A stretch of 38,816 nucleotides of DNA from contig JAEELJ010000047.1 of assembly GCA_016288855.1 (NCBI GenBank), positions 1-38,816 on the forward strand. Reading direction: 5' to 3'. The stretch is from Acholeplasmatales bacterium (GTDB lineage Bacteria > Bacillota_I > Bacilli_A > Acholeplasmatales > Anaeroplasmataceae). The notes beneath the pieces were generated by a model. The model ran no database searches and was not told the DNA's origin. It saw only the letters and a program-made list of their open reading frames with translations. A program made the translations under genes and the position numbers. Position 1 is the first letter of the stretch. Each line of letters starts with the position of its first letter. Shown here one piece after another: positions 3,334 to 23,160 of this stretch.

Positions 3334-3375
3334 AAATATCACCTATTGAAATTTTATACTAAAATTAGTACTTTT

Positions 3376-5606: not shown

Positions 5607-8364
5607 ATTTTTCACTCTCCTCTTTATAATTAATATATGTTTCAATACTTGATATAATATCGATTAACTTATTTCTCGTATCAATTAGTTCTTGTTCTAT
5701 TAATTCCTTTTTGTTAATAGTTTTATATCTTTCGATGATTTTATCTATTTGATTCTTTAAAGCAACATAATCTGATAATTTATCAGGTTGTGGCACAAAA
5801 CTAGGACAATTGAAGCAATTATTAGAACCCTTACCACACTTAGCTTTCTCTCCTAACACAGTCTTTTGATAACACATACCATACATAACTGGTCTTATTT
5901 TTGCCAATTCTTTATCATCAAATGATATATCAAATTTTTCTTGAAGAATTCCTTGTTTTCTAAAATCATCAGGAATATTATTTTTTATTCTTGATACTCT
6001 ATCAAAAGAATGATTGTTATAAATTACAGTATTCTCAATGTTAGCATGATTTAAAGATACTTGAATTATATTTTCAGGAACCTCAAAATCTTGCAACATT
6101 GAAGCAACAGTATGCCTAAATTGATGCGTCGTTATATGAAGAATTTTACCATTTGAACCTTTTATTTCTTCTTCTTTAAAAAAATCATTTATATCTTTAT
6201 TAACTCTATTACAATTTAAAACTCCAAATTTCCTATCATAAACAATGTATTTACATCGTCTTTCATGTGTTTTTATATAATCTGAAATATAATCATATAA
6301 ATCTTTTGAAATTAAAGTTGATTGATATTTTAAAGCTTTTGTTGAATAGGAGTTTAAATAATAATATCCATTATTACAGTATAGGCAATCTCTTTCTAAT
6401 GATGCTACTTCACTAAATCTTAATCCTGTATATACAAGAACAACGATAATAAACATATACCTTTCATCCAATTTATTTATTACAGAAAAAATTCTTTGAA
6501 TATCTGATAAATTTATATCATTATTTTTATACTTTCTACTTCGATCGTATTTATAGTCTGATTCATTTACAATATTATTTTTAACAAGTCCCTCAGCAAT
6601 TAAATAATCATAAAAGTTATCAATTGCATGAATTTTAGTATTAACTGTATTGATAGATACTTTTAAGTTGTTTTTATAATTAAGAAGCATATTTCTACTT
6701 ATTTTTTCATATGAACACGATGTATAATTTAGAAACTCTGAAATCTGATTTATAGTACTTTGAATACATTCATATTTCCTTTCAGTATAAATTATTTGAT
6801 TTTCAGCATAATTATAAAGCACTGTATAATTCTCCGGCGTATTTAAGTTATTAAACCTAATCACCTTTTTCTCCTTACCGACATATGTTCTTTCTAACCT
6901 TTCGGTGTTCTCATATTTACCAATATATAATACAGGATATTTATCTATTTGATGACTTATAACAATTCTTTCATCAATATAATTGTTAGCATATAAAAAA
7001 TGAAGAAAATCATCAGGAGAACTTAAATATTTTCTTGTAGCGTCATAGCACTGATTTAAGTTTCTAATGTAAAGCTTATAAGCATCTATAATTTCATAAT
7101 TAATTTTAGACAATTCTATTTTATTTTCAGATATATAATTAAAAAAACATGACAAATAATTAAGTTTCATTTTCAAATATGTCGTTTTAAAGCCTTTATC
7201 CTTTTTTAATGCATCTATATAGTCAATAACTATTTGCCTATACTTTTCAGGAAACCTTTCAAAACAAATATCATCAACAGTTTTTCTTTTTGTTACAACC
7301 TTTTTTTTCCTTTTACTTACTATAGATATACATCCACTGATCAAATATTCTCTATAAACGACCATTTTATTCTTGATACTGTCATTACAATTCAAAGAAT
7401 CAATTTCATTTATTTCGCATATATTAGTTTTATATAAATTTAAATACCATTTTGCCCCAACAATTGTATCTTCAAAAGATATATGGGGTAAATCTAAAGT
7501 TAACATGTAATTAACAAATTTTTTGAATTCGTAATAATTATTTAAATCCTTCATATCAAACAATTTAAATGAATGCTCCTTATTCTTATAATTTGTTACA
7601 ATTTCACGTCTAGATATCTCTTTATACGCCATTGGATTATTTACCATGTAGTTATTAACATAATAATCAATAAAAACTTTGAAATGTGCCATTTTTAGCC
7701 TCATATACTTTTTGTTAATCTTGCCAGAGCATACTTCATTTACATAATTAATAACTGATTGTTCAGTAATTATTCCTTCATCTACTTCCGCATTTTTCAT
7801 AAATTCATCTAAAAATCTTACTTTCATAACAATATCGCCTAAGGTATTTTCGGTATTTTCGATTAGATAATTTAAATACTTTTTAATAATCTCAGTCTTG
7901 TCATCACTAAGCCATGAAATTCCTATATTCTTAATACAATTACTTGTTTTAGGTTTGCCTTGCTTATGCTTCAATTCAATTTCCGGTGTAACATGAAATA
8001 TGATATTTGTAGTTGTATAATCAATCAATCTAATTTTTACTAGTTCTTTTAAATATAAACAATCGAAAAATTCTTTAATAATGAAAATATTAGTTGGTCT
8101 ATCTAAGTTTTCTCTGACCCAATCACAATATTTATTAAAATCTTCTTGACTATATTCTTTTACACTTTTATCCTTCAAAGATATCAAGAAATTACTAGAA
8201 GTATTAAAATGTCTTCTAGCTGTTTTTAATTTATTCTTGCCATCAAAAATCCAATAGCAATATTCTATTAAAGCCTCCCTATTAGAGTCACTGGGAATAT
8301 CCTTTATTATAATAAATTCATCTTTATATTTTTTATTAAATCTTGATAATAATACTCTCTCCAT
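5581..8364 (-). CDS. tnpB: Large tyrosine recombinase, TnpB-like (second of three)
   Basis: 927 residues, longer than Tn554 TnpB (about 630); the first ~380 residues look like an extra SAM-like DNA-binding region joined to a standard integrase. Catalytic residues by position: R649 in YTGLRFSEV, H747/R750/H751 in THQFRHT, H773 in SLNHANIEN and Y782 in TVIYNN, so the set is complete. A C-terminal cysteine cluster follows (GMCYQ ... CGKGSNNCFNC). AGGAGG lies 8 nt upstream of the ATG. The gene begins 4 bp after tnpA ends and overlaps the third recombinase, which shows tight translational coupling. Mobile-element transposase, cytoplasmic and DNA-bound. Confidence 0.9.
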   Translation of the reverse strand: MERVLLSRFNKKYKDEFIIIKDIPSDSNREALIEYCYWIFDGKNKLKTARRHFNTSSNFLISLKDKSVKEYSQEDFNKYCDWVRENLDRPTNIFIIKEFFDCLYLKELVKIRLIDYTTTNIIFHVTPEIELKHKQGKPKTSNCIKNIGISWLSDDKTEIIKKYLNYLIENTENTLGDIVMKVRFLDEFMKNAEVDEGIITEQSVINYVNEVCSGKINKKYMRLKMAHFKVFIDYYVNNYMVNNPMAYKEISRREIVTNYKNKEHSFKLFDMKDLNNYYEFKKFVNYMLTLDLPHISFEDTIVGAKWYLNLYKTNICEINEIDSLNCNDSIKNKMVVYREYLISGCISIVSKRKKKVVTKRKTVDDICFERFPEKYRQIVIDYIDALKKDKGFKTTYLKMKLNYLSCFFNYISENKIELSKINYEIIDAYKLYIRNLNQCYDATRKYLSSPDDFLHFLYANNYIDERIVISHQIDKYPVLYIGKYENTERLERTYVGKEKKVIRFNNLNTPENYTVLYNYAENQIIYTERKYECIQSTINQISEFLNYTSCSYEKISRNMLLNYKNNLKVSINTVNTKIHAIDNFYDYLIAEGLVKNNIVNESDYKYDRSRKYKNNDINLSDIQRIFSVINKLDERYMFIIVVLVYTGLRFSEVASLERDCLYCNNGYYYLNSYSTKALKYQSTLISKDLYDYISDYIKTHERRCKYIVYDRKFGVLNCNRVNKDINDFFKEEEIKGSNGKILHITTHQFRHTVASMLQDFEVPENIIQVSLNHANIENTVIYNNHSFDRVSRIKNNIPDDFRKQGILQEKFDISFDDKELAKIRPVMYGMCYQKTVLGEKAKCGKGSNNCFNCPSFVPQPDKLSDYVALKNQIDKIIERYKTINKKELIEQELIDTRNKLIDIISSIETYINYKEESEKYEKPTNAF

Positions 8365-8368
8365 TATA

Positions 8369-9526
8369 TTAATCCTCCTCTTTTATTTTGTTTAATTTAA
8401 GCTCGTTTGCTCTTTCAACCATCAATTTTTGAGCTTTTCTTGCATGAATATACCTATCTGAAGATTCAAGTCGTTTATGCCCTAATATTGTCTGTAATGA
8501 TATTTGATCTTGAGTCGAATCATAAAAGTCAGTAGCAAATGCATGTCTTAAATCATGTGGATGAATTTTATAATCTTCATCAATCCATCCTTGCTCTAAT
8601 AATATTTTTTGATATATATTAAATTCACTTTTTATTACATTATCCGTCAACGCTTTGCCAATATTCTTTCCAGAATATGACACAAATAAATAATCACTTG
8701 GAAAATGATTTTGAGAAACAATCAAAAGTGTAATAATATGATTAGCTACTTCTTCATCGACAGATAAAATTCTATCTTGTGTTTTTGATAATGCTTCGTT
8801 TTCGTTATCTTCTCGATGAAGAATTTCAATATTACCCTGACCAATATCAGATAAATCATCTAGTCTTAACCCAAGTATTTCCCCAACTCTTAAACCACAA
8901 TTAATTGCAAGTTCTAAAAACACTATTCTTCTTAACATTGTTAATTCTTTAATTCCCATTTTAGATGTAATACCTTCACATAAATAAGGTACTTTGTTTA
9001 TTAAATAAATTATCAGTTTTTCTATAACAGTTCTATCAATCGGATTATTTGGCTTTGCACGTTCAGTTTTATAATCAATATTAAATTTAAACTTTTCTTT
9101 ATGATACTTTTTACCGATAAATTCATTAAAGACTGAATTTGAACTTTCACTGATCAAAGTAAAACTATTAAGTGATACTATTTCCTCATCAGCTAAAAAC
9201 GAATAAAAAGATACAACATCAGAACATCTTTCGTTACAAGTAATATTTTCTACATTTCTAACATTAGATAAGTAATCACTATATTTAGAAAAGAAACTTC
9301 GTATTTCTTTTATATTAGCAACATCAAGAACATTCATATTATTTACTTCTAAATAATTAAAGAAAATCATTAATGATGTTGCGTATCTTTTTAATGTATG
9401 TCTTGATCTATTTAACCTTGCTAAATGAATTATAAATTTTGATGAATAAACTTCAGGTATCCCATTTCTATCAACTACTATCCATAAAGTTTTATTATCT
9501 CTTTTAACACTTTTAAAAGAATACAT
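8369..9526 (-). CDS. tnpA: Tyrosine recombinase, TnpA-like (first of three)
   Basis: 385 residues, similar to Tn554 TnpA (361). An N-terminal SAM-like core-binding domain (about residues 25-115) is followed by the catalytic domain with all residues present: R213 in NCGLRVGE, H324/R327/H328 in HPHDLRHAFAT, H350 in ILGHKRLESS and nucleophile Y359. It is the first gene of the recombinase operon, read from a near-consensus promoter at 9561-9589. AAAGGG about 9 nt before the ATG is a modest ribosome site. The C-terminus overlaps nothing; tnpB starts 4 bp on. Confidence 0.93.
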   Translation of the reverse strand: MYSFKSVKRDNKTLWIVVDRNGIPEVYSSKFIIHLARLNRSRHTLKRYATSLMIFFNYLEVNNMNVLDVANIKEIRSFFSKYSDYLSNVRNVENITCNERCSDVVSFYSFLADEEIVSLNSFTLISESSNSVFNEFIGKKYHKEKFKFNIDYKTERAKPNNPIDRTVIEKLIIYLINKVPYLCEGITSKMGIKELTMLRRIVFLELAINCGLRVGEILGLRLDDLSDIGQGNIEILHREDNENEALSKTQDRILSVDEEVANHIITLLIVSQNHFPSDYLFVSYSGKNIGKALTDNVIKSEFNIYQKILLEQGWIDEDYKIHPHDLRHAFATDFYDSTQDQISLQTILGHKRLESSDRYIHARKAQKLMVERANELKLNKIKEED

Positions 9527-9666: not shown

Positions 9667-10830
9667 TTATTTTACTCTTAAAATCATGCATTTCAAATAT
9701 AACTGTTCTTCTGATTGTAATAAGGCTGGATGGTCAGGGGCTTGAATTCTAAAATCCAAAAATTGAACAGTTCTTTTAGCATCATGAGCTGCTTCATTTA
9801 CCATTTGCATAAATAAATCTGGAGTCATATGCTGGCTACAACTAAACGTTAATAAATAACCACCAGATTTAATAATCTTCATAGCCTGCATATTAATTTC
9901 CTTATATCCTCTATAAGCTTTCTTTAAAGAATCCTTATTTTTAGAGAAGGCTGGTGGATCCAAGACTATAACGGAATACTTATTCTTAATTTCTTCACTA
10001 TGAAGGTAATCGAAAACATCCGTACATATAGTGTTCAACTGCGTATAACCATTTAATTTTGCATTTATAGCAATTTCATCACAAGCCCTTTGTGATATAT
10101 CACAGGCGTCTACATGTTTTGCTCCATATTTACAAGCGTGTAATGCAAAGCCTCCAACATTAGAAAATGCATCTAATACAACTTGGTCTTTAGCATATAA
10201 TCTTAAGATATCTCTATTTAACTTTTGATCTAAGAAATAGCCTGTTTTTTGACCATTTTCCATATCAACCATCATCTTTATTCCATCTTCGACAATCTCT
10301 ACTCTAGGATCAAATTTACCATATAAGAAACCTTTTACTTGTTCAAGACCTTCTTTTTCTCTAACAGGCATATCGCTACGTTCATAAATACCTTTGCAAC
10401 CAGTTAATTCAACTAATATATCAACTATATCTTGCTTAATCATATCCATTCCTAAAGACATAAATTGCACTGATAAATAGTCACCATATTTATCAACAAC
10501 AAGTCCCGGCAAGAAATCAGCTTCGCTGAATACTAAGCGTGTTGCACTCCAACCCAAATTCTTTCTATGCTCAATTGCATAAGCTATTCTTTTCTTAAAA
10601 AATTCTTTATCTATAACTTCATTTTCATCTAATGATAAAATTCTAACCATAATCTTAGAATTGGTATTTAAGAATCCATAACCAACAAATTTATGGTCAA
10701 AGGTATATACACTACAAACCTTACCGTTTTCAATAGTGCCTTCGAAATTAATTATTTCATTATTAAATACCCATGGATAGCCATTCAAAACATTATCCTC
10801 TTCATGCTTATTTAATATTACTTTTAGCAT
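9667..10830 (-). CDS. rlmI: Intact RlmI-like 23S rRNA (m5C) methyltransferase carried by the element
   Basis: 387 residues, close to E. coli RlmI (396), which methylates C1962 of 23S rRNA. Order: N-terminal PUA-like domain (NGYPWVFNNEI), a linker with KYGDYLSVQ and GIYERSD, GQKTGYFLDQ, SAM motif I DAFSNVGGFALHA, motif IV VIVLDPPAFSK, then KKAYRGYKEIN and a catalytic-type Cys in LLTFSCSQHM. The ATG at 10830 is chosen because AAAGGACG lies 7 nt upstream; upstream in-frame codons to 10872 have no site. By eye it is clearly homologous along its whole length to the two halves of the split chromosomal copy (22245-23123 plus 2474-2764), roughly half identical and thus not a recent duplicate. It sits between hsdR and the recombinases. 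Inference: cargo that replaces the function lost on insertion. Confidence 0.9.
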   Translation of the reverse strand: MLKVILNKHEEDNVLNGYPWVFNNEIINFEGTIENGKVCSVYTFDHKFVGYGFLNTNSKIMVRILSLDENEVIDKEFFKKRIAYAIEHRKNLGWSATRLVFSEADFLPGLVVDKYGDYLSVQFMSLGMDMIKQDIVDILVELTGCKGIYERSDMPVREKEGLEQVKGFLYGKFDPRVEIVEDGIKMMVDMENGQKTGYFLDQKLNRDILRLYAKDQVVLDAFSNVGGFALHACKYGAKHVDACDISQRACDEIAINAKLNGYTQLNTICTDVFDYLHSEEIKNKYSVIVLDPPAFSKNKDSLKKAYRGYKEINMQAMKIIKSGGYLLTFSCSQHMTPDLFMQMVNEAAHDAKRTVQFLDFRIQAPDHPALLQSEEQLYLKCMILRVK

Positions 10831-10862
10831 GTAATCACGTCCTTTTTTATACAAAAAGCATT

Positions 10863-10920
10863 GATTAATCAAATAAATCGAGCTTTTTTTAAAAATTTTC
10901 TCAATGCTATTTGATTAATC
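10863..10920. repeat. 13-bp perfect inverted repeat between hsdR and rlmI
   Basis: GATTAATCAAATA at 10863-10875 is exactly complementary to TATTTGATTAATC at 10908-10920, with 32 nt between, and the outer arm overlaps the hsdR stop codon. In RNA it would form a long-looped hairpin in the hsdR-rlmI gap. It could be a terminator/attenuator, an mRNA-processing site, or the trace of a module joint. Confidence 0.7.
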
Positions 10921-13900
10921 GTTATACTTTTTAAAATTTTCTACTTGTTTTAATATTTCATCATATGCTTCATCTATTGGTTGAGCAGGTGGATAACCAT
11001 TTTTTCTCAATAGAACTGCAACATCTGAATATAATTCATCTTTAATATCTTGTCTATGGGTCCAATCTGTGTACTTTGATTTATTCACAACAAATTTCTT
11101 TATTTCTTTAGCAAGATATATAAATTTTTCTTCTTCAATTTTATCTTTAAATTTATATTTTTCAGCCACTTCAACTAGAATATCATAGAATGCTTTTTCA
11201 TCAAAAGATATACCTAACTTTTCAAAAGATTGTTTTTCATCTTTAAGCTCATTAAAGATAGTTTCCAATTCTTCACTTAGGTTATCTACAACATCTTCAA
11301 TAATTTCTTCTATTTCACCTAGTTCATTACGTGTATTATATCTATCAATTACAGATTGTAACTTCTTTGAGAATACAGATGCTTTTAACTTATTTGTTTT
11401 ACCAAATTCTTTAATTGCTTTTTTCAACAATTTAATTAAAGCTTGATATCTTGTATTAGAGAATTTAATCTTTTTAATACTATTTAAGAATTCATCACTA
11501 AATATATTAGTTGCATCTTCTTTTGAATTCTCAAAATTAAATTCTTTACCATCATATGTAGAGGAAATAGCTCTATCCACTAATTCCTTTACTTTTCTAT
11601 TCATTAATGTTGCATCAGGCGTATCGTGAATTGTCATTTTGTAAATGACAGATCTAACGCACATATAGTAATGTAATCTATCAACCTCACGAGTTTCAAT
11701 ATCAGGATGACCAATACAAATGTCAAAAGCCTTTTTGGCTCTTAAAGTAAATCCCATAAAATTATCCGTTCTATTCTTATCTGATAAAACATATTCTACG
11801 CCTGTTTGAATAATAATAAGTCTTTCAAGCGAACTAATTGTTTCATCAAAGAACTTAGAGAAATTGCACTCATTCATTAATGCATCAATCTTAGACATAA
11901 AATCTTTAAAGATTGTTAAGCATACATCAACACCATTCACTGGTTTTAAGTCACCATTGTAAAGTGCCATCGCCTTCTTTAAAGCAGATTCAAGTCCGAT
12001 ATAATCAACAATTACACCTTCCTCTTTACCCTTAAATACACGATTAACACGTGAAATTGTTTGAATTAAATTATGAGTTTCAATTGGCTTATCTAAATAC
12101 ATAGTATCCAAAGATGGAACATCAAAACCAGTAATCCACATATCTACTAATATTGCAATTTTAAAATTAGATTTAACATCTTTAAATGCCTTAGCGTATC
12201 TCTTTCTATCTTCAGATGAACCGATAACTTCTTGCATTTCTTTAGAATCATTTTTACCATTAGTACAAATTAGCTTTACTTTTTCAATTTCTTCTTCATC
12301 TTTTGTTCTCTCGCTACCTTCGTACTCTTTTGCAAAAATCTTCTTTTCAAACCATTCAGGTCTCAATGCTTTTATTCTCTTATATACTTCAAAGGCAATT
12401 TCTCTATCATAACATACAAACATTGCCTTTTGGTTAATAGTAGCATTTTCGCTACAACGAAGTTCATAATGCCAAATAAAGTGTTTAACAACAACATCTA
12501 GTCTATCTGGATTTCCTAAAATAATCTTTAATTTTGTCATATCCTTCTTAGACTGTTCTATTTGATATTTATTGGCACCTTCTTTTTGTTGAAGTTCATA
12601 ATACTTATCGCAAGCTTCAGCAATTTTTTCATCCAATTGAACTTCACGAGGACCATTGATTCGTGTGATTCTTACTGTTGCACCATCATCTATAGCCTGC
12701 TTCATAGTATATTTTACAACTGGATCACCAAAAACTCTCAATGTAGCATCTACTGGAGTTCCAGTAAATCCAACATAAGTTGCATTAGGGAATGAATCTC
12801 TTAAATACTTAGCAAAGCCATAGCTCTTTTTTGCTTCTTTATCAGTAATAGTAATCTTTTCACCAGTATTAGTTTGTGTTCTATGAGCCTCATCTGAAAT
12901 ACAAATAATATTTCTTCTATCACTTAATAGATTAATATCTTCGCTAAACTTCTGGATAGTCATTAAGTATATACCACCACTTTGAACATTGCCAAGCTTT
13001 TTCTTTAACATATCTCTATTCTTAATAGATAATGAATTTTCATCTACAAGATATGTTTTAGCATTTTCAAAATCTTCCGATAATTGCTCATCCAAGTCAT
13101 TTCTATCTGTAAGTAATATAATTGTTGGTTTATCTAGTTCTAATGACACAGTAAGTCTTTTTGATAGGAATAACATAGTGTATGACTTACCACATCCAGT
13201 AGCACCCCAATAAGTTCCACCTTTACCAGACTTTAATGCATATTCTTTAAGAATGTGATTATACATTTTTTCTGCGCCATAGAATTGATAATACTTTGGT
13301 AATATAACAATATCATCATCACTTGAATCTGGAATAAACACATAGTTCTTAATAATTGTTAATAGTGTTTTTGGTTCAAACAAACCATTAATTAATGTTT
13401 TAATACCTTCAATGCCATCAGTATTATCATAATCTTCACCATCATTAGAGTTCCATTTAAAATAGAATTCATAATCACTAAATAATGCACCATATTTAGT
13501 ATTTGCACCATCTGATATTACATTAATAAAATCAAATTTCATTAATGACGGAATATCTTGGGCATATCTAATATGAGTTTGGTCATATGCATCTTTTATA
13601 TCTACAGTTGCATCTGCAGGATTCTTTAATTCAAAGACTGAAACAGGAATACCATTTATAAAGATTACTATATCAGGTCTTCTTTCCTTATACTCACTAA
13701 ATTCAAATTGATTAACACATTTAAATATATTGTTATCTAAATTATCATAATCAAAGAATTCAATTGAAGTTTTCCTTCCATCTTCTCTATCAATTGTGAA
13801 TGTAGATGTAATAATCTTATATGTTTCTTTTAAAGAACGATATAAAGATATATTAGAAAAATGTGTTAAATGAGAAATAACTTGCTTAATCTCATCATCA

Positions 13901-14073
13901 TTAAAATATCCGTATCTATTTTCAAGATATCTTTTAATATCATTGAATAAAATAATATCTTTCTTTTCTCTATGAATATCATATCCACATTCATATTCAT
14001 ATTCTGGGTGTTGACACAAAAGTTCTAGAACAGCACTTTCATAATCATCTTCATAATATTTAAAATTAGGCAT
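10915..14073 (-). CDS. hsdR: Type I restriction enzyme, R subunit (HsdR)
   Basis: 1052 residues, normal for HsdR. The N-terminal nuclease shows a PD-(D/E)xK signature: RRPDIVIF (D134) and VFELKNP (E148, K150). The SF2 translocase follows with Walker A GATGCGKS (290-297), SDEAHRTQ (D394-H397), FTGTPVD, WITGFDVPSLDTMYLDKP and ISRVNRVFKGK. It cleaves DNA that lacks the HsdM methylation pattern after ATP-driven translocation, in complex with HsdM and HsdS. GAAGGAGG lies 8-9 nt before the ATG. It starts 1 bp after hsdS ends. No frameshift or missing motif was seen, so the nuclease looks active. Confidence 0.95.
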   Translation of the reverse strand: MPNFKYYEDDYESAVLELLCQHPEYEYECGYDIHREKKDIILFNDIKRYLENRYGYFNDDEIKQVISHLTHFSNISLYRSLKETYKIITSTFTIDREDGRKTSIEFFDYDNLDNNIFKCVNQFEFSEYKERRPDIVIFINGIPVSVFELKNPADATVDIKDAYDQTHIRYAQDIPSLMKFDFINVISDGANTKYGALFSDYEFYFKWNSNDGEDYDNTDGIEGIKTLINGLFEPKTLLTIIKNYVFIPDSSDDDIVILPKYYQFYGAEKMYNHILKEYALKSGKGGTYWGATGCGKSYTMLFLSKRLTVSLELDKPTIILLTDRNDLDEQLSEDFENAKTYLVDENSLSIKNRDMLKKKLGNVQSGGIYLMTIQKFSEDINLLSDRRNIICISDEAHRTQTNTGEKITITDKEAKKSYGFAKYLRDSFPNATYVGFTGTPVDATLRVFGDPVVKYTMKQAIDDGATVRITRINGPREVQLDEKIAEACDKYYELQQKEGANKYQIEQSKKDMTKLKIILGNPDRLDVVVKHFIWHYELRCSENATINQKAMFVCYDREIAFEVYKRIKALRPEWFEKKIFAKEYEGSERTKDEEEIEKVKLICTNGKNDSKEMQEVIGSSEDRKRYAKAFKDVKSNFKIAILVDMWITGFDVPSLDTMYLDKPIETHNLIQTISRVNRVFKGKEEGVIVDYIGLESALKKAMALYNGDLKPVNGVDVCLTIFKDFMSKIDALMNECNFSKFFDETISSLERLIIIQTGVEYVLSDKNRTDNFMGFTLRAKKAFDICIGHPDIETREVDRLHYYMCVRSVIYKMTIHDTPDATLMNRKVKELVDRAISSTYDGKEFNFENSKEDATNIFSDEFLNSIKKIKFSNTRYQALIKLLKKAIKEFGKTNKLKASVFSKKLQSVIDRYNTRNELGEIEEIIEDVVDNLSEELETIFNELKDEKQSFEKLGISFDEKAFYDILVEVAEKYKFKDKIEEEKFIYLAKEIKKFVVNKSKYTDWTHRQDIKDELYSDVAVLLRKNGYPPAQPIDEAYDEILKQVENFKKYND

Positions 14074-14074
14074 A

Positions 14075-15169
14075 TTATCTAGCCTCCTTCATAGCTCCTG
14101 CAATTAATATAGGGCAAATATTTGAAATCCTATTTTTTAGAACTTCAACATATTTTTTGCGTTTATTATATATTTTAAAAACATTTGAAATATTTTTTTG
14201 AACATCAATAGTTGGTATTGGAATTTTTACATTTATTAAATCATTCCAAGTGAATGTTTCTCTTGCACTTCCCCAAGAATGAAATCTAGCATATCTATCA
14301 AATTCTTTCCTATTAAAGAACATACATAAATATTCAGGGAGTAAATATTCTAAATCTGATTCAAATACCTCATTAACTGATGAAACAACTATATCATCAT
14401 CTGTATCATTTAGTGCATATGCAAAAACTTTTTCGTTATGTGTCGTTTGTACAAAAGAAATTTGGTTCGGTTTTACAACTTTATAATTCTTCAATTCATT
14501 ACGATTTACTTTCGAAGTTGGTTCATTAAAACACTTATAGACACTAACATTTTTCACATTTTTAATTTTATTATCAGAATTCTTAATATCAACTCTACTA
14601 ATATATTTGCCTATTTTTTTACATTCACAGTTTTTTTTCAAATTTTCAATATAACCATCACAAACAAGCTTCAAATCATCTAACTTAGATTCATAAACCT
14701 TCAAATTATATTGCAATGCTTTATAAATTTTTACATATTTTTTTTGGACTTCTAATGGTGGTAAATCAATCTCAAATTCTCCCAAATTATATGTTCTAAA
14801 ATAGTTTCTAGCAGATCCAATTGCATCAAAAGAACATCTTCTTGCAAATTCATTTCTTTTGATAAATAGATTCAAATATTCGGGCAATAATATATCATTT
14901 CTAGAAACATAAAAAATTTCATATAGTGAAGAACATATTCCTTTTTTTATCTCGGTATTTAATGCAATTGAATTTAATTCCATTCTAGCTGGATTAAACA
15001 CAAAATCATTTTGATAAAACACATTATAAATTGATAAATCAGCATTTTCCTGCTTTGGACTAATAAATCCATCTCGACTTACCCCTCGTATAGGAAGTTC
15101 TTCTATACCATTGTATTTTTCTCTACGTTGAATAATTAATTGTGACAATTTATATCTATTCAATGCCAT
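14075..15169 (-). CDS. hsdS: Type I restriction-modification specificity subunit (HsdS)
   Basis: 364 residues from the ATG at 15169, preceded by GAGG and overlapping hsdM by 14 bp; the longer frame to 15223 lies wholly within hsdM. It has two target-recognition domains, each ending in a similar block: LLPEYLNLF...EFARR...GSARNYF with LPPLEVQKK near the middle, and LLPEYLCMF...EFDRY...GSARETF with IPIPTIDVQKN near the end. Each block is followed by a helix that sets TRD spacing. The two domains read the two halves of a bipartite DNA site. The target sequence cannot be predicted from the protein by eye. Confidence 0.92.
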   Translation of the reverse strand: MALNRYKLSQLIIQRREKYNGIEELPIRGVSRDGFISPKQENADLSIYNVFYQNDFVFNPARMELNSIALNTEIKKGICSSLYEIFYVSRNDILLPEYLNLFIKRNEFARRCSFDAIGSARNYFRTYNLGEFEIDLPPLEVQKKYVKIYKALQYNLKVYESKLDDLKLVCDGYIENLKKNCECKKIGKYISRVDIKNSDNKIKNVKNVSVYKCFNEPTSKVNRNELKNYKVVKPNQISFVQTTHNEKVFAYALNDTDDDIVVSSVNEVFESDLEYLLPEYLCMFFNRKEFDRYARFHSWGSARETFTWNDLINVKIPIPTIDVQKNISNVFKIYNKRKKYVEVLKNRISNICPILIAGAMKEAR

Positions 15170-16739
15170 ATCCAATGCCTCTAAATGCCTCTTCAAGCTC
15201 TTTTTGCGATTGTTTTTCATCATCTAACAGAGTCTTCATTTCCTTTTGAATACGAGCCATTTCTTTCTCGAAATCTATTTCTAAATCGTGGTCAACAAAC
15301 TCAATGTATTTTGAAGGGATTAAACTATAACCTTTCTTTGCAATTTCATCCTTAGTTGCGGAATAGCAAAATTCTGGAACATTTTTATATTTTTCTTTCC
15401 ATTCAGGAGATTGCCAAGCGAATAGTGTATCTTGAATTTTTTTCTTATCTTCCTCTTTTAATAAAACATATCCTTCATCATTTTTGCCTTCGTCGCCTAA
15501 CCTTCTAGCATCGATAAACAAGATTTCATTTTCACGGTTTCTTAATTTAACATCAACGTCATTTCTTCTTACGGTCTTTTCTTTTTTATGATTTCCAATA
15601 ATCCATAATGTTACCGAAATATCTGTATAATAAAACATTTCTCTAGGTAAAACAATAATTGCTTCAACTTTATTGTTTCTAATTAAATTTTCTCTTATCT
15701 TAGCTTCATCACCATCAGCACCTAATGCACCATTTGCAAGTAAGAAAGCTCCTGTTCCATTATAAGACAATCTTGACAACATATGTAAAATCCAAGCATA
15801 ATTAGCGTTGCTTACAGGTGGAATAATATGTTTATTTTCATCGTTATCCCATCTTCTATCATTAGTTAATTCATCTTCTGTTCTCCAAGCCTTTTGGTTA
15901 AATGGAGGATTTGCTAGGATAAAGTCTGCTCTTAAATCTTGATGTAAGTCGTGACTAAATGTATCGGCATCACTTTCACCAAGGTCACAGTTTAATCCTC
16001 GAATTGCTAGATTCATTCTAGCCATTTGATAGCTTTTAGGGTTATACTCTTGTCCGTAAATTGTTATATTCTTTGTATTACCTTTATGTTCCTTAATAAA
16101 CTTTGCAGACTGAACGAACATACCGCCTGAGCCACAGCAAGGATCGTAAACCTTGCCAGCATAAGGCTGAATTAACATTGTCATCAATTCAACTATATTT
16201 CCCGGAGTATAGAACTCTCCCTTTTCATCCTTAGCTTTAATACAGAAATTCTTTAAGAAATATTCATATACTCTACCGATAACATCATCTGACTCATCTT
16301 GTGAATATTCAATCTTATTTATTTCATCAATTAAAGATGAAAACTTAGATGCTTCAATATGTAATGTTAAATAAAATCCTCTAGGTAATGCTCCTTTTAA
16401 TGAAATGTTATTCTTTTCAATATTAGTAAAAGCATCATCAATAATTGTTAAAATATTGCTTTGTTTTGAATGATTTTTAATGTAATCCCATCTATCTTCT
16501 TCAGCTAAATAGAATACGTTATCTTTACTGTAAAATCTTGGTGAATCAACAAAGTCTTTTGTATCTTCATTTGATAGAATCTTTTCTCTTTGTACAATGA
16601 ATTTATCATATGCAAAACGTAAGAATAATAATCCTAAAACAACATTTACATAATCTGTTGCACTTACGCTTCCTCTTAATTTGTTGCAGGCATTCCATAA
16701 TCCTGCTTCTAAACTTACTTTTTTCTCTGTTTTTGCCAT
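15156..16739 (-). CDS. hsdM: Type I restriction-modification methylase subunit (HsdM)
   Basis: 527 residues, standard length. A helical N-terminal domain (LWNACNKLRGSVSATDYVNVVLGLLFLRF) is followed by GEFYTPG, SAM motif I DPCCGSGGMF (D199) and the N6-adenine catalytic motif NPPF (277-280), then the C-terminal helices that hold HsdS. It methylates adenine in the HsdS target. Its start is 10 bp downstream of the previous gene and it overlaps hsdS by 14 bp. Unlike its upstream neighbour it has intact catalytic motifs. Confidence 0.95.
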   Translation of the reverse strand: MAKTEKKVSLEAGLWNACNKLRGSVSATDYVNVVLGLLFLRFAYDKFIVQREKILSNEDTKDFVDSPRFYSKDNVFYLAEEDRWDYIKNHSKQSNILTIIDDAFTNIEKNNISLKGALPRGFYLTLHIEASKFSSLIDEINKIEYSQDESDDVIGRVYEYFLKNFCIKAKDEKGEFYTPGNIVELMTMLIQPYAGKVYDPCCGSGGMFVQSAKFIKEHKGNTKNITIYGQEYNPKSYQMARMNLAIRGLNCDLGESDADTFSHDLHQDLRADFILANPPFNQKAWRTEDELTNDRRWDNDENKHIIPPVSNANYAWILHMLSRLSYNGTGAFLLANGALGADGDEAKIRENLIRNNKVEAIIVLPREMFYYTDISVTLWIIGNHKKEKTVRRNDVDVKLRNRENEILFIDARRLGDEGKNDEGYVLLKEEDKKKIQDTLFAWQSPEWKEKYKNVPEFCYSATKDEIAKKGYSLIPSKYIEFVDHDLEIDFEKEMARIQKEMKTLLDDEKQSQKELEEAFRGIGYGIE

Positions 16740-16749
16740 AATAATCTCT

Positions 16750-18060
16750 TTAAATCTCCATATTTTTTAACAAAGCATTCCATACTTCGTCTATTTCTTT
16801 GTCAATTTGCTCGACAGGTCTATAATTTGTTACCTTTACTGGAACAACGTGTCTATTTACAACTAATGTTTCAGATTTAACAACAATATCCAAACAATGT
16901 TTCACCTCAGAAATATTATCTATTTCTTTCTTATTAGTAACAATATCAAAAATCATATCAATTCCTTCTGTAGTTAATTGATTAGATGATTTTTGTTTTT
17001 GAGTAAAGTTGAAATATTCATTCGTGCCTGCACTAACAAATACCACTGATTTATCCTTTTTATTCTTTGATAAAATCAAAACATTTGTTTGAATTGCAGT
17101 TGCAGACCACATTGATGGTAATTCTATAACTGCATCAATATAATTATTTTCCAATAAATACTTTCTTAATTGAACATATGCTTTTTGTTCTTTGAATAAT
17201 ACTCCACTAGGCACAGTTACAAATGCTCTACCTTTATCATTTAATGATTCTAATGTCATCAATATAGATAAAATATTACTATCTGACATATTACCCATGA
17301 TATCTTTATAAGATTGCATATATCTCATTTCATAATCACGATTTAACTTAGCGTTTATTGGTCCATCATTAAATATCAAATCAGCTTTAAGTTTGCTAGA
17401 AAATTCATTCATATAGGCATCATTTAGTTGTAATTGTACATTATTCTTTTGAGCAATAATGCATCTAATTGTAGCTAACATAAGTGTCTTAGGATTTATA
17501 TCATTACCTACAGAACTAACATCTTGAGGTAATTTACTAATAAATACACCTGTTCCAACAAAAGGATCATAGCATAGTTCCCCAGATTGAGGGTTAAGTA
17601 TTTTAATTGCTAAATTTGCTAATGAATTATTAGATGAAAGTTCGCTATACATTCTTCCAGAATTACTAATTTTCTCGTCAAAATAATCAAGAATAATTTC
17701 TCCAGAATCTTTTAAGTTCAATGTCCAAAGAGAACTCCATATTCTTCCATCTTTAAATCCTATTTGTTCATATACATCTAACAATGTTCTAGTAAATGCA
17801 TATTCACCGTTAAAACAGTTATATGTTTTTTCTATATAATTTACTAGGCATTCTCTAGAAATACCATTTATATCATGCGTAGACATTTGTAAATCTAATA
17901 ATGCATTCAATTGTTCTTCGTTTGTTGCAAACGCTCTATTATCCATTGACCATTTTAAAAACAATAAACAAAATATATTTTCAATTTCATTTGCACTTCC
18001 ACTTAGTCCTCTTATTTTATTACTAAAAGACCACAATGTATTTTCAAATTCCTTATTCAT
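16750..18060 (-). CDS. HsdM-like N6 methylase homologue with degenerate motif IV
   Basis: 436 residues, about 90 shorter than the true HsdM beside it. The N-terminal helical domain (TLWSFSNKIRGLSGSANEIENIFCLLFLKW) and motif I DPFVGTGVF (D165) are preserved. The catalytic (N/D)PP(Y/F) is replaced by NDGP (231-234), so base flipping and methyl transfer are probably lost, while SAM binding may remain. AAGGAGG precedes the ATG. It overlaps the half-S gene by 8 bp and is followed 10 bp later by active hsdM. The pair S-like/M-like therefore forms a second, non-standard module in front of a complete RM system. Possible roles: DNA-binding regulator, target-site competitor or a modifier of the HsdM complex. 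None is established here. Confidence 0.75.
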   Translation of the reverse strand: MNKEFENTLWSFSNKIRGLSGSANEIENIFCLLFLKWSMDNRAFATNEEQLNALLDLQMSTHDINGISRECLVNYIEKTYNCFNGEYAFTRTLLDVYEQIGFKDGRIWSSLWTLNLKDSGEIILDYFDEKISNSGRMYSELSSNNSLANLAIKILNPQSGELCYDPFVGTGVFISKLPQDVSSVGNDINPKTLMLATIRCIIAQKNNVQLQLNDAYMNEFSSKLKADLIFNDGPINAKLNRDYEMRYMQSYKDIMGNMSDSNILSILMTLESLNDKGRAFVTVPSGVLFKEQKAYVQLRKYLLENNYIDAVIELPSMWSATAIQTNVLILSKNKKDKSVVFVSAGTNEYFNFTQKQKSSNQLTTEGIDMIFDIVTNKKEIDNISEVKHCLDIVVKSETLVVNRHVVPVKVTNYRPVEQIDKEIDEVWNALLKNMEI

Positions 18061-18622
18061 TATTGCCTCCTTCTGAGATCATTGTTTCAATTTTCTCATT
18101 TTGCAATTTAATCATTTTTTCTAACAACATCTTATTAGTTGTCATCTTCTTATACTCTAAACCAATTCTCTTTTGTAAATCTATAGACTTATTTGGAATA
18201 TCTATGCTTTTCAATTGTCCAACAGACATGATACCAGTAACACTTCCTGTTACCATTCTTTGTACTTGCTCAACAAATAGTTTTGAATTGATATAAGCAA
18301 CAGCATAATTCTTGTCTATTTGATTATTTTCTAATCTAAGAATTGCACAAAATGAAGGAACAACTAAACCCACATGATTTGAATCTATCACGCAAGCTTC
18401 GTATGGAGTTGATAATTTTACGATTATATCACCTTCCATTGTCATTTTAGATTCATCTAATTTAGTTTTCATTTTGTTATCAACAAGTTCTGAATCCATA
18501 ACCACTCCATTGCTTATTGCTTTAGGTAATAAGACTTTTCTAATTTCAACTTCGTCAATTTCAGTTGTTATTCTAGACATTACTTGTCCTGATGTTACAT
18601 TAAATATTTCACTAATTAGCAT
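18053..18622 (-). CDS. Half-size HsdS-like protein (single recognition domain)
   Basis: 189 residues from the ATG at 18622 (GGAGG about 8 nt upstream). It resembles one half of a specificity subunit: a beta-rich segment (LLPKAISNGVV, EGDIIVKLSTPYEACVID), AVAYINSK, GSVTGIMSVGQLKSIDIP and a closing helix (LQKRIGLEYKKM...EKMIKLQNEKIETM). Only one TRD is present, so it would have to dimerise to read a palindromic or bipartite site, as reported for some half-S proteins. It overlaps the 142-aa gene by 11 bp and the degenerate methylase by 8 bp, so the three are translationally coupled. The most natural partner is the adjacent degenerate methylase. Confidence 0.75.
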   Translation of the reverse strand: MLISEIFNVTSGQVMSRITTEIDEVEIRKVLLPKAISNGVVMDSELVDNKMKTKLDESKMTMEGDIIVKLSTPYEACVIDSNHVGLVVPSFCAILRLENNQIDKNYAVAYINSKLFVEQVQRMVTGSVTGIMSVGQLKSIDIPNKSIDLQKRIGLEYKKMTTNKMLLEKMIKLQNEKIETMISEGGNNE

Positions 18623-19040
18623 AATCGTATTCCTCCATTTTATAATCAAAATAATTATTATACTTTATGAACTTCTTAATATTTCTAACAAGAGTATTTT
18701 TATAAATTGATAATTGCCTTTCAATTTTTCCTTTTTTCTTGCTAGTGTTGCACTTATCCTCTTCGATTCTCTCATATAAATTTTCAATCATATTTTGTTC
18801 TTGAACCGAATGACAATTTAAATACGGGTCTTTCGAATTAATTTCAACTAATTCGTCATATTCATTTTTATCAATTTTAACAACATCAATAATTGCATCC
18901 TTATGGTGATGTTTAACTCTTGGTAACCATCTTGCAATGCTGGCAGCTTCTTTTCTATTTTCCGCTTCAACAGGCATCCATACATTTATACAATTATTAA
19001 TTCCTACGTGACCGCATTTAACAAAAACCTTACAATACAT
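18612..19040 (-). CDS. Unknown 142-aa protein leading the RM operon
   Basis: I do not recognise the family. The start at 19040 is chosen because AGGAGG lies 9 nt upstream; the ATG at 19049 abuts that site. The N-terminal ~60 residues look like a small folded domain, with KCGHVG, then AENRKEAASIARWLPRVKHHHKDAIIDV; the Cys, His and clustered His-His-His residues could bind metal. The C-terminal half is charged and helical (EERIEED, TSKKKGKIERQ, LVRNIKKFIKYNNY) and may contact nucleic acid or protein. It is the first gene behind the repeat-flanked promoter at 19114-19142 and is translationally coupled to the half-S gene. Its position as leader of an RM operon suggests a regulatory or accessory role, but that is inference only. 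Confidence 0.6.
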   Translation of the reverse strand: MYCKVFVKCGHVGINNCINVWMPVEAENRKEAASIARWLPRVKHHHKDAIIDVVKIDKNEYDELVEINSKDPYLNCHSVQEQNMIENLYERIEEDKCNTSKKKGKIERQLSIYKNTLVRNIKKFIKYNNYFDYKMEEYDYAN

Positions 19041-19077: not shown

Positions 19078-19167
19078 TTGTCATATTTTTTTGGTACTAT
19101 CGATTACACCTATATTGTAGCACCCAAATTATATGTTGTCAACAATTTTGTCATATTTTTTTGGTAC
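19078..19167 (-). promoter_or_regulatory. RM operon promoter flanked by two 20-bp direct repeats
   Basis: On the minus strand TTGACA (19137-19142) and TACAAT (19114-19119) are exactly 17 nt apart. An identical 20-mer, GTACCAAAAAAATATGACAA on the minus strand, occurs at 19148-19167 just upstream of -35 and again at 19078-19097 just after the likely transcription start, 70 bp apart. Two perfect copies on both sides of a strong promoter look like operators. Each copy is bipartite (GTACC, A-rich spacer, ATGAC), like a type I recognition site. Confidence 0.8.
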
Positions 19168-19180
19168 ATATTAATTGGTG

Positions 19181-19208
19181 CAAAAAAAGAACCTATTAAT
19201 AGGTTCTT
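19181..19208 (-). terminator. Terminator after the DUF262 gene
   Basis: A near-perfect palindrome (arms AAGAACCTATT / AATAGGTTCTT, 19187-19208) is followed on the minus strand by seven T. It insulates the DUF262 gene from the RM promoter. Confidence 0.9.
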
Positions 19209-19223
19209 AATTTATAAAATATT

Positions 19224-21626
19224 TTATATTTTTTCTACAAGGGCATCAATTTCTAATAAAACATTCATAATTGATTCCTTTGTTGCTTCAAAATTCTTTG
19301 AATAAAGCATATTCCATTGACGAGTCTTTTTAAACTCTAAAAAATTATTAGTCAATTTTGTTCCCAAATCCTTATTTGGAGTGTTCACCCATAGAGAAGC
19401 ATTCATTTCTTTGATATTAAAGTAAATTAATCCACTAGTATCAACCATTTCATTTGTTTCACTATTATATTTAAATTCTTCTCTTCCAAATATGCCATGT
19501 AATTTAACGGTATCAACTATAAAATTTCTATCTCCATCATATTGTTTTTTATAAATAAAATAATTGGCATTATTAGATACTATTTCATTTAAAACTTTAC
19601 CAACAGTTTCTCTATTTTTAAACAATTCATCTTTATTAGGTTTAGTATAAACTATTAAATCCTGTGGAATATAATTATCCTTTAACAAATGTTTTAAAAT
19701 TTGTTTAGCACTTCCACGATAATCTTCGCTTGGTGCAAGTATCTTTCCTATTTCATAGAAACTATACACCTTTTGTATTTTATTATTATGCTTTATAGCG
19801 ATTGGTTGAGCTCCAGTAAATAACTCATAGTTTATTTTTGTAACTGGATGAACATTACACTTTTCAAATAACGATGTATTTTCTTTTGCTTCCTCAATTG
19901 AATCAACTTTAAATAAGGCATTTGCCTGACTAACAAGATCATTATTTCTTGTATTGAAATTATCCAAATTCCATGTTGGATAGCTTGCAATATTTTTATT
20001 TAATGTAAACTTTGATTTCTTATATATTGATAACTTATAATCATATGACTTATTACTAGCATCGGTATTAGATGAAGTATCAATAAAACTCAAATTACCA
20101 ATACAATGTTTTCTTGGTGTTAAATCTTTGATTACTTGAGCATTCCAATACTCCTCTTTAGGAGTTTGTGGAAAAATATGTTCCACTCTTCTTTTCTCAT
20201 CTAAGATTACTCTTTCTTTGTGCCAAGTTGGATATCTACCATCCTCTAATGAATTTAATATTACATCACGTAATGCAGATTTATGATATAATTCACATGC
20301 TAAAAGTCTATCAACAAATTTGTCTCCAAAAATATACTCACCAAATCCATAATTTTTTGCATATTTAAAATAATTGTATATAGCCAAATACTTATCTTCA
20401 TTATTCTCAGCATTAATGTAAATTGATTGATATAAATTTACAAATAATTGACGATACTTATTTGATGTTACTCCACAAATTCTAGATTTAACTATAAATA
20501 CTAATATCAAATTTAAAATCTTATTCAATTCTTCTTTTCTATTGGAAGAACCATTAATAATTATTGGCTTAAATTCTTTACATTCAAACAATTTAATTAA
20601 AAAAGGATATACGGTCAATATATTCGTTCTATTAATTTCAGAAGTCAATCTAACCCATGATTCTTTCTTTTCTGAATCATTTAAATCTCTACACAAAATA
20701 TATCTATATACTTCTGAACAACTATATAAATCTTTTAATGCTTCTTTTTTGTAGTTGTCAGCTTTTTTCTGAGATTCAACATATTTTCTATATTCCTCAA
20801 AGACTTTATCTTCATTTACAATTTCGCCTTTTCTACTCATTACATAATTATGAATAAAAGATTCAAGATTATCTTGACCAACATTATTTTCAATTTTAAT
20901 CCAATAATTTTTATATAAGAAATCTCTATTACCTTCATTCATCAATAAATAATTTAAAACAAGATCATATTCTTTTAATCTAGCATTATTATAATTAAGT
21001 CTTTCAAAAATAATCTGAGAATCTTCGAATTTATTTAATACAATTTCAGAATTAAGCAAATACTTTATTCCTTCAACATATATATCAATGTTTTCTTTAT
21101 TTTTTAAATAATCAAATATTTCCTTATATCTTCTAGATAATACATTATCAATTAATTTTACTTGTGAATAATCATATGGAATATTTATAATCGTATTAAA
21201 AGTTGTTATATCTTCATCTTTTCTTTTATCTAAATTGATATATGAATTATCATCATCTATCATTAAAAGATTATTTAAGTACTTTCTATTATCCTCATTT
21301 GTTGTTATCAAAGATAAAGCCTTAATTATCAAAAACATAGTGATAAATCTTTGTTGACCATCAACAATTACATAATTGTCATTGTCTTTTTCTTTTTGTA
21401 AAACAAGAGTTCCAAAAAAATGATCTCTTTTTGATAAACCAATTTCATATATGTCATCAATTAGTCTTTTGCAATTGCCATCACATACACCACTTTTGTT
21501 ATCCTTATCCCAAACATAATCTCTTTGAAAGCAAGGAATAACAAATTGAACCCTAGGTTGAATATTATTTTTGTCACCATTTGGGTTATAAATCCAATCA
21601 ACAAATTTCTTATTCAAAATTTCCAT
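19224..21626 (-). CDS. DUF262/DUF1524 HNH protein, GmrSD-like type IV restriction or defence nuclease
   Basis: 800 residues from the ATG at 21626 (GTGGTGAT just upstream). The N-terminal DUF262 domain has the diagnostic IPCFQRDYVW and VDGQQR (88-93), the ParB-like nucleotidase motif. The middle is helical. A DUF1524-type HNH site occurs near residue 483 as RRVEHIFPQTP, followed by NLSFIDTSSNTDASNKS. The C-terminal ~200 residues form an extra domain. GmrSD proteins with this DUF262 plus HNH arrangement cut modified phage DNA; others of the family act in different defence settings. The gene has its own terminator and is separate from the type I operon, so the element carries two independent restriction functions. 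Confidence 0.85.
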   Translation of the reverse strand: MEILNKKFVDWIYNPNGDKNNIQPRVQFVIPCFQRDYVWDKDNKSGVCDGNCKRLIDDIYEIGLSKRDHFFGTLVLQKEKDNDNYVIVDGQQRFITMFLIIKALSLITTNEDNRKYLNNLLMIDDDNSYINLDKRKDEDITTFNTIINIPYDYSQVKLIDNVLSRRYKEIFDYLKNKENIDIYVEGIKYLLNSEIVLNKFEDSQIIFERLNYNNARLKEYDLVLNYLLMNEGNRDFLYKNYWIKIENNVGQDNLESFIHNYVMSRKGEIVNEDKVFEEYRKYVESQKKADNYKKEALKDLYSCSEVYRYILCRDLNDSEKKESWVRLTSEINRTNILTVYPFLIKLFECKEFKPIIINGSSNRKEELNKILNLILVFIVKSRICGVTSNKYRQLFVNLYQSIYINAENNEDKYLAIYNYFKYAKNYGFGEYIFGDKFVDRLLACELYHKSALRDVILNSLEDGRYPTWHKERVILDEKRRVEHIFPQTPKEEYWNAQVIKDLTPRKHCIGNLSFIDTSSNTDASNKSYDYKLSIYKKSKFTLNKNIASYPTWNLDNFNTRNNDLVSQANALFKVDSIEEAKENTSLFEKCNVHPVTKINYELFTGAQPIAIKHNNKIQKVYSFYEIGKILAPSEDYRGSAKQILKHLLKDNYIPQDLIVYTKPNKDELFKNRETVGKVLNEIVSNNANYFIYKKQYDGDRNFIVDTVKLHGIFGREEFKYNSETNEMVDTSGLIYFNIKEMNASLWVNTPNKDLGTKLTNNFLEFKKTRQWNMLYSKNFEATKESIMNVLLEIDALVEKI

Positions 21627-22024: not shown

Positions 22025-22244
22025 CTCCCTATAAAAATGTTTATATGAAAGGCTATTTCTTTTAACAAATAAAAAAATTGATCATTTGTTCATTGTAGCC
22101 TTTCAGGCATAATTGTATCTGGGGACACATTCCCCAAACCCTTTGAACATCAACCAACTTTATCTATAAACACTATTTAACACCAATATATATTTACTAT
22201 AGATATACACCATAAACACTATTGGTAATAATACTATCGATAAC
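22025..22244. repeat. Right end of the element: nested hairpin, direct repeats and core-type sites
   Basis: No gene. A 10-bp perfect inverted repeat TGAAAGGCTA / TAGCCTTTCA (22046-22055, 22096-22105) encloses a second pair AACAAAT / ATTTGTT (22064-22070, 22084-22090). GGGGA-N5-TCCCC follows at about 22121-22135. ATAAACACTATT occurs twice as a direct repeat (22166-22177, 22212-22223). At the border GTTAT (minus, 22244-22240) faces ATTAC across 10 nt, as at the left end. These are likely recombinase binding sites and perhaps a structured leader RNA. Confidence 0.6.
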
Positions 22245-23123
22245 TAAGACAATAACATCATATTTATTGTAATTAGCTTCATCTCTTAAAAAATTAAATG
22301 TATCATCACATATAACATTAATATTATCAAATCCATTTAATTTAGCATTTTCTAATATATTATCACATGCAAGCTTTGATATATCTAATGCTGTAACAGA
22401 TTTAGCCCCATTCTTACATGCGTTTAAAGCAAATCCACCTACATTAGAAAACAAATCTAATACATCCTTATTTTTACAATAATGCTTAATATTATCTCTA
22501 TTATATTTTTGATCTAAGAAATAACCAGTCTTTTGACCATTTTCCATATCTACATAAAATTTAATACCATTTTCTTTAACTAATACCTTAGGATTAAAAG
22601 AATTATAAATAGGACCTGTGAATGCATCCATTCCTTCTTTTTCTAGTGATGCCATATCGCTTCTTTCATAAATTCCTTTTGGATTTAACAATTTAACTAA
22701 AGAATTAATAATCCAATCCTTATGCAAAGATAATCCTAAAGATGATATTTGAATACATAAGTAATCACCATATTTATCAACAACTAATCCAGGTATAAAA
22801 TCAGCTTCACTAAATACTAATCTCATACAATTAGAATCATTTAAATCTAATGATTTTCTATAATTAATTGCATCACTTAATCTCTTATAAAAGAATGCTT
22901 CATCAATAACATCATTTTTATCTAAAGATAATATTCTAACCATAATTTTAGAAGTCAAATTAAAAAAACCATATGCTAAAAATTTATGGTCAAAAGTTAA
23001 TACCTCACAAATATCTCCATCTTTTATTTCACCTTGAAAGGAATTAACCTCATTGTTAAAAACCCAAGGGAATCCTTCAAGCTTTTCCTTCTCTTCATTT
23101 TTATTTAAAATAACAGAAAACAT
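22245..23123 (-). pseudogene. rlmI: 5' fragment of the split rlmI-like methyltransferase
   Basis: About 293 residues of an RlmI homologue: PUA-like start (GFPWVFNNEVNSF), KYGDYLCIQ, GIYERSD, NGQKTGYFLDQ and SAM motif I DLFSNVGGFALNA, stopping exactly at VIVL just before the catalytic DPPAF. After that the frame enters element sequence and hits a stop about 17 residues later, at 22197. The remaining C-terminal part is at 2474-2764. The start at 23123 fits GAGGTAA 9-10 nt upstream better than the ATG at 23129. The truncated product may still fold as a PUA domain plus half a Rossmann fold but lacks the Pro-Pro and Cys catalytic motifs. Confidence 0.93.
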
Positions 23124-23160
23124 AATCATTTACCTCAAGTAAAATTATAACATATAAATA

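Follow-up and report, generated by a model that had tools for sequence, protein, structure and literature searches.

A very probably inactive Type I methyltransferase pair with paired operator-like boxes around its promoter is a probable autogenous regulator of a restriction-modification operon

Introduction

A target recognition domain (TRD) protein is by nature a sequence-specific reader of DNA, and a dimer of half specificity subunits is expected to read a bipartite palindrome, as has been established for M.AhdI and the engineered EcoR124INT. TldR proteins are nuclease-dead, TnpB-derived repressors that are guided by RNA. The control of Type I restriction-modification (RM) operons is poorly known; the controllers described are helix-turn-helix C proteins, RptR and Type II methyltransferases fused to a helix-turn-helix domain. 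RptR, an all-helical protein of 79 aa encoded by the first gene of a Type I RM defense island, acts as its repressor and binds TAGCTA direct repeats in its own promoter (PMC12255303). HsdC of Mycoplasma gallisepticum is a C protein that controls a Type I operon in Mollicutes (PMC5282649). M.Ecl18kI, M.SsoII and M.EcoRII are active methyltransferases that repress their own RM promoter with an added helix-turn-helix domain (PMC12707154). Here we analyze a Type I RM operon in contig JAEELJ010000047.1 of an Acholeplasmatales bacterium (assembly GCA_016288855.1); the whole stretch of 38,816 nucleotides is referred to as the window. In this operon, the canonical hsdM, hsdS and hsdR genes are preceded by three genes that encode a 142-aa leader protein (P142), a half specificity subunit (hS) and an HsdM-like protein that has lost its catalytic motif (dM). 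We consider it probable (roughly 0.7) that hS-dM derives from a Type I methyltransferase, has lost catalysis and now serves as an autogenous transcription regulator, most likely a repressor, of its own operon.

Results

dM has lost the catalytic motif and belongs to a separate clade

In domain searches, dM matched N6_Mtase with an E-value of 1.5e-34, and the best structural matches of its AlphaFold2 (AF2) model (mean predicted local distance difference test [pLDDT] score, 77) were HsdM proteins (3lkd and PacII M1/M2). When dM was aligned with HsdM, the HsdM residues ANPPFNQK stood opposite NDGPINAK, so that N, P and F of motif IV are replaced by D, G and I. The original prediction had recognized the loss of NPPF but had placed the motif at NDGP; the loss holds, whereas the aligned reading is DGPI and the preceding N lies outside the motif. 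The window dM thus has the HsdM fold and the S-adenosylmethionine (SAM) motif I of an active Type I methyltransferase and lacks NPP[FY]. As had been proposed, it very probably cannot methylate.

The loss is general among the relatives described below. NPPF was absent in 21 of 22 dM or dM-S fusion proteins, and an intact motif is therefore not the norm at this position; the sole keeper was the dM of locus L210. The replacements varied (DGPI, DPPL, DFPL, DIPF, EPPI, APPI, VPPF and others), and motif I was mostly retained. N-x-P-F/Y was kept in all 25 canonical HsdM proteins that we examined, the majority of which belong to these loci. In a phylogenetic tree, the separate dM proteins, including the window dM, formed one clade (support 90/88) apart from all canonical HsdM tested, and the canonical HsdM neighbors of separate dM fell in several HsdM clades. 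Judged by its sequence, the window dM is a member of a distinct dM clade and not a decaying oddity.

The hS profile matched solved HsdS chains (3okg, 5ybb and 2y7c), and hS has one TRD, in agreement with the single recognition domain noted in the original prediction. hS is kept in the relatives. In loci collected by the hS profile plus one window-derived route, a collection that favors hS conservation, hS identity was above dM identity in 45 of 45 pairs (mean 34% versus 22%). The reverse was observed in eight control loci, where the identity was 71% for HsdM and 31% for HsdS.

Paired boxes straddle the promoters of hS-dM operons

The predicted promoter of the window operon lies between two identical 19-mers that are 70 bp apart (Table 1); both the promoter and the box pair had been missed by the original prediction. 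When the complete genome was scanned for GTACCAAAAAAATATGACA at up to 3 mismatches, one further match appeared, with 3 mismatches, and none with 2 or fewer. A box pair with a sigma-70 promoter inside was found in 10 of 11 separate hS-dM operons (each 0/100 in shuffled sequences), compared with 1 of 230 control regions, taken from upstream of other genes at these loci (Fisher P = 8e-16), where promoters are promoter-like sequences rather than mapped starts. The window pair thus shows two of the features by which we define the proposed hS-dM autoregulator family, a single-TRD hS next to a dM of the dM clade and paired boxes straddling the promoter; the third, control of transcription through sequence-specific binding to the boxes, is predicted.

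L117 and L121 have a common 17-mer, ACATAAAAAACATATCA, which occurs twice, 82 bp apart, around their promoters, and L099 has two copies of a close variant 80 bp apart. Exact box matches in these three genomes were confined to these promoters, and the two operons with the same 17-mer have hS proteins that are 63% identical. L182, L183, L184, L185, L186 and L210 have box pairs of their own, and all six lack P142. Across the family, the boxes are 17-24 bp long. Some are palindromes in the style of Type I targets, namely AATG-N6-CATT (L210), TGGTT-N6-AACCA (L224 and L230), GGAT-N6-ATCC (L226), AGTAAT-N3-ATTACT (L232) and TAGTAT-N5-ATACTA (L234). At L210, L224, L226, L232 and L234, the half-sites are constant and the spacer differs between the two copies. 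A single box rule (a palindrome with a fixed spacer) was rejected, as it is true for some relatives and fails for the window clade. Protein similarity was the sole basis on which L230, L232 and L234 were selected, so that they constitute a small prospective test; among the other plasmid loci, L233 had no box pair and L235 was only suggestive.

Box similarity was correlated with hS identity in ten loci (Mantel rho = 0.57, P = 0.0006). It was also correlated with dM identity, as expected of genes that travel together.

Relatives occur in three arrangements

No relatives were retrieved when dM was used as the query against 160 genomes of its order, or when dM alone or motif-IV fragments were used against viral or genome contig collections. 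The productive route was to search with the P142 family first and then with an hS profile. The order P142-hS-dM was present in three of 80 loci fetched with P142, namely L099 (a metagenome-assembled genome [MAG] labeled Erysipelothrix), L117 (Candidatus Darwinimomas) and L121 (Lachnospiraceae); downstream of the L117 and L121 modules are HsdM genes of other families. The hS profile yielded loci in 9 of 397 Lachnospiraceae genomes, 7 of 196 genomes from the order of L099 and 12 of 398 genomes from the wider phylum. Among phages and plasmids, P142 and hS as queries yielded single distant matches at most. Later searches aimed at an independent test set returned no new loci, and the plasmid loci L230-L235 were used instead. 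Once relatives had turned up, we dropped the idea that dM was an RM subunit peculiar to this genome.

In the first arrangement, separate hS and dM genes stand ahead of hsdM-hsdS-hsdR genes or, at L185 and L186, alone with no such genes nearby. Most of these loci lack P142, and L184 has a different leader of 99 aa in its place. The second has dM and S joined in a single protein of 558-624 aa; relatives of this type are located on plasmids of Subdoligranulum, Salimicrobium, Paenibacillus, Lactococcus and Sulfuricurvum, and the M/S fusion of Lactococcus cremoris carrying pJM2A is WP_081196204. In the third, hS directly precedes an active HsdM and there is no dM. Box pairs were mostly absent from the third arrangement, except for one at L187 and a weaker one at L211. 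At L187, ATCATGACAAAC occurs twice around the promoter. An hS before an active HsdM, followed by full HsdS and HsdR, was seen at L187, L188, L189, L211, L214-L222 and L231 and is apparently common; a small gene of ~240 aa often trails it.

The megaplasmid of Ligilactobacillus salivarius also carries a half-S and N-6 methylase pair (WP_014573567/8; L071:4935-6885), with DPPI for NPPF and no HsdR. We did not accept this pair as a family member, since its M groups with the canonical HsdM proteins and its promoter lacks paired boxes; it is either independent or different.

The operon and its surroundings

The features of the operon are listed in Table 1. P142 overlaps hS and hS overlaps dM. Because of these overlaps, and because HsdM starts 10 bases past the dM stop, we regard the six genes from P142 to HsdR as one operon. 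The original prediction had described overlapping genes ahead of an intact hsdM-hsdS-hsdR system, and its coordinates were all correct; the genes are on the minus strand.

Table 1. Coordinates of the operon features in the window
Feature	Position	Strand	Basis
P142 ('GHVG' family) leader gene, 142 aa	18612..19040	-	Open reading frame at the head of the operon
hS, half specificity subunit, single TRD, 189 aa	18053..18622	-	ATG at 18622; PADLOC Specificity_I and solved HsdS chain matches
dM, HsdM-like, 436 aa, catalytic motif lost	16750..18060	-	N6_Mtase; AF2 model versus HsdM structures; separate-dM clade
dM motif I (SAM-binding type), DPFVGTG, kept	17548..17568	-	Alignment
dM motif IV position, DGPI for NPPF	17356..17367	-	Alignment
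Canonical HsdM, NPPF intact	15156..16739	-	N6_Mtase and HsdM_N; motif alignment
Canonical HsdS, full, 382 aa	14075..15223	-	Domain searches including PADLOC Specificity_I
HsdR	10915..14073	-	HSDR_N, SWI2_SNF2, TIGR00348
Putative operator box 1, just upstream of -35, GTACCAAAAAAATATGACA	19149..19167	-	Sequence
Predicted sigma-70 promoter, TTGACA-N17-TACAAT	19114..19142 (19142..19114 as read)	-	11/12 matches, extended -10
Putative operator box 2, identical 19-mer, just past the expected start site	19079..19097	-	Sequence

Directly upstream of the operon is a GmrSD-type (DUF262/DUF1524) restriction gene (19224-21626), with a terminator-like hairpin (19187-19208) at its end. The operon is carried by a mobile island (window positions 2474-23129) whose insertion target is an rlmI-like 23S rRNA methyltransferase gene, now broken into an N-part (22197-23129) and a C-part (2474-2857) with ~19 kb between them. 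The island encodes three tyrosine recombinases (3807-9526), along with a pair of small TnpC-like genes (2878-3792). It also has a second rlmI copy (9667-10872) that is intact and would substitute for the broken one. The mad1-mad8 set of MADS was not found among the window proteins, which gave only weak mad2 and mad5 matches via shared M/S domains.

P142 is a separate leader of many cassettes

P142 belongs to no Pfam, NCBIfam or PADLOC family. Its AF2 model (mean pLDDT, 92) is a confident small beta-beta-alpha-beta fold with additional helices and has a weak likeness to archaeal ribosomal LX/L18a-type proteins and RNA polymerase epsilon. The family is common and heads many unrelated mobile or defense-like cassettes, including phage-type anaerobic ribonucleotide reductase, VWA/PP2C/kinase, radical-SAM and McrBC-like operons. 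P142 is thus best regarded as a separate, promiscuous leader of mobile cassettes. The original prediction had treated the 142-aa protein, the half-S and the methylase as one three-gene module and suggested a neighborhood search for the combination. In our searches, P142 preceded many unrelated cassettes; what is conserved is the hS-dM unit, which frequently lacks P142 and in some cases is a single fused protein.

Hosts of the P142 family (L003-L050 and L081-L160) include Mollicutes, Clostridia, Treponema, a phage and MAGs labeled as Bacteroidales and archaea, and the genome of the window contains a second copy (G000:C22:8201-8587). In L036, L037, L039, L040 and L041, the P142 domain is C-terminal in proteins of 263-280 aa whose N-terminal half resembles BspA-type leucine-rich repeats. 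The P142-led anaerobic ribonucleotide reductase cassettes L081, L082, L083 and L035 have upstream direct repeats of their own, ~86-95 bp apart, and are adjoined by a small helix-turn-helix-like gene.

Discussion

The paired boxes at its own promoter make a regulatory role the best reading of hS-dM, a possibility that the original prediction had raised. It had also offered a sensor of phage or SAM loss and a competitor for target sites as possible roles; the paired boxes favor autogenous control of transcription in the first place. In the mechanism that we propose, hS would supply the DNA-reading TRD and dM the HsdM fold with its SAM-type motif I. The two would assemble as a dimer of hS-dM units, as half-S enzymes do, and read the bipartite boxes. 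Binding at both boxes would block RNA polymerase and hold expression of the whole operon, from P142 to HsdR, at a low level. Because occupation of both boxes would hinder RNA polymerase, autogenous repression is the likeliest outcome; activation is the alternative. Possible triggers of release are loss of SAM, an antirestriction protein that mimics DNA and arrival in a new host; because motif I is kept, SAM is a candidate ligand. P142 would be a co-transcribed passenger or a co-regulator.

Several observations weigh against this proposal. The window box and the GWACAT-type boxes of relatives are not clear palindromes, which leaves their reading by an hS dimer unexplained. No box pair was detectable at L213, a separate hS-dM locus, or in about half of the fusions. 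The distances between paired boxes (55-138 bp) do not share one DNA-loop phase, so that the data require no rigid loop. In addition, the dM of L210, with its NPPF, might methylate, and the higher conservation of hS is in part favored by the way in which the loci were gathered.

Other proteins could in principle read the boxes. P142 might be the operator-binding regulator, with a different role for hS-dM: it is the first gene in many operons, it has a weak match to phrog_5301 'transcriptional repressor' (E-value, 1e-4), and Type I operons with a small first-gene repressor that binds direct repeats have been described (RptR, PMC12255303). However, the six hS-dM operons that lack P142 are still boxed, a box pair was found in only 2 of 69 P142 operons without hS-dM (P = 4e-10), and the four P142 proteins linked to hS-dM are not one clade, yet boxes are present at all four promoters. 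For these reasons we consider hS-dM the probable reader of the boxes and control by P142 quite unlikely. The canonical HsdS is also an improbable reader because boxes occur at the solo pairs L185 and L186.

The same solo pairs bear on the idea that hS-dM acts at the protein level, by swapping into the methyltransferase or restriction endonuclease complex or by occupying sites, and thereby alters specificity or damps restriction. Such a role would suit the resemblance of hS and dM to parts of the assembled enzyme and the related arrangement in which hS directly precedes an active HsdM and a full HsdS (L187-L189, L211 and L214-L222), but the same module also stands ahead of several HsdM families, and paired operators that track hS would be left unexplained. 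We regard it as unlikely, although it is compatible with regulation. It is very unlikely that dM is active with a diverged motif and that hS-dM controls the promoter through methylation of its own boxes, in the manner of CfrBI or AhdI. Promoter methylation does regulate Type II systems (PMC12707154), motif I is mostly kept and L210 has NPPF; nevertheless, the N of NPPF is replaced in most dM proteins and the aromatic residue in many, the window dM included, and the substitutions differ between lineages, which fits a loss of activity rather than a new active site. Decay of a duplicated, functionless M/S pair could account for the lost motif and the long dM branches, but it is hardly credible given the intact overlapping frames in many genomes, the dM clade, the conservation of hS above that of dM and the conserved operator pairs.

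More tentatively, and with the odds against it, hS-dM may found a new class of transcription factor that represses its own RM operon and also senses attacks on that class of enzyme. SAM depletion, or Ocr/ArdA-like proteins that bind the M-S core, would pull hS-dM off the operators, and RM expression would rise at the very time when a phage or plasmid attempts to turn off restriction. The solo hS-dM pairs that mobile elements carry would be self-contained versions. Release by antirestriction proteins or SAM loss would explain how cells sense antirestriction. If the regulatory role is correct, the dead M/half-S pair and its two operators would represent a molecularly new kind of regulator, in which a TRD reads an operator rather than marking it, and it would account for orphan 'inactive' M and half-S genes, for which the usual annotation is that of an RM component. 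The predicted binding sites follow directly from the box pairs, and one relative is on a Lactococcus plasmid.

No account of a dead Type I M/half-S regulator turned up in the open-licence literature, consistent with the original view that the combination is not a described system. Like RptR, hS-dM would be a regulator from the leading genes of a Type I RM operon that binds direct repeats at its own promoter; unlike RptR, it is a two-gene Type I M/S derivative with boxes of 17-24 bp on both sides of the promoter. P142 itself was rejected as an RptR, as its model has beta strands and the window promoter has no TAGCTA. The predicted autogenous control of an RM operon is shared with C proteins and HsdC, where it comes from a first-gene regulator. 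Unlike these small helix-turn-helix proteins, P142, hS and dM matched no helix-turn-helix family, and on this ground identity with a C protein, HsdC or a helix-turn-helix-fused regulatory methyltransferase was rejected. In M.Ecl18kI, M.SsoII and M.EcoRII the methyltransferase is active, whereas here it is very probably inactive, and reading of the operator would fall to its own specificity subunit. The pair resembles the half-S methyltransferases M.AhdI (M2S2) and engineered EcoR124INT in its one-TRD S and its expected dimer. Those enzymes have a symmetric bipartite target with a spacer of 5-8 bp, and they methylate, whereas hS-dM has lost the catalytic motif. An M.AhdI-like target of half-site, spacer and half-site was seen at L210, L224, L226, L230, L232 and L234 and is not evident in the window box. 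A parallel in kind is TldR, unrelated in sequence, in which a dead enzyme of mobile or defense origin was likewise reused as a transcription regulator, the role that we predict for hS-dM.
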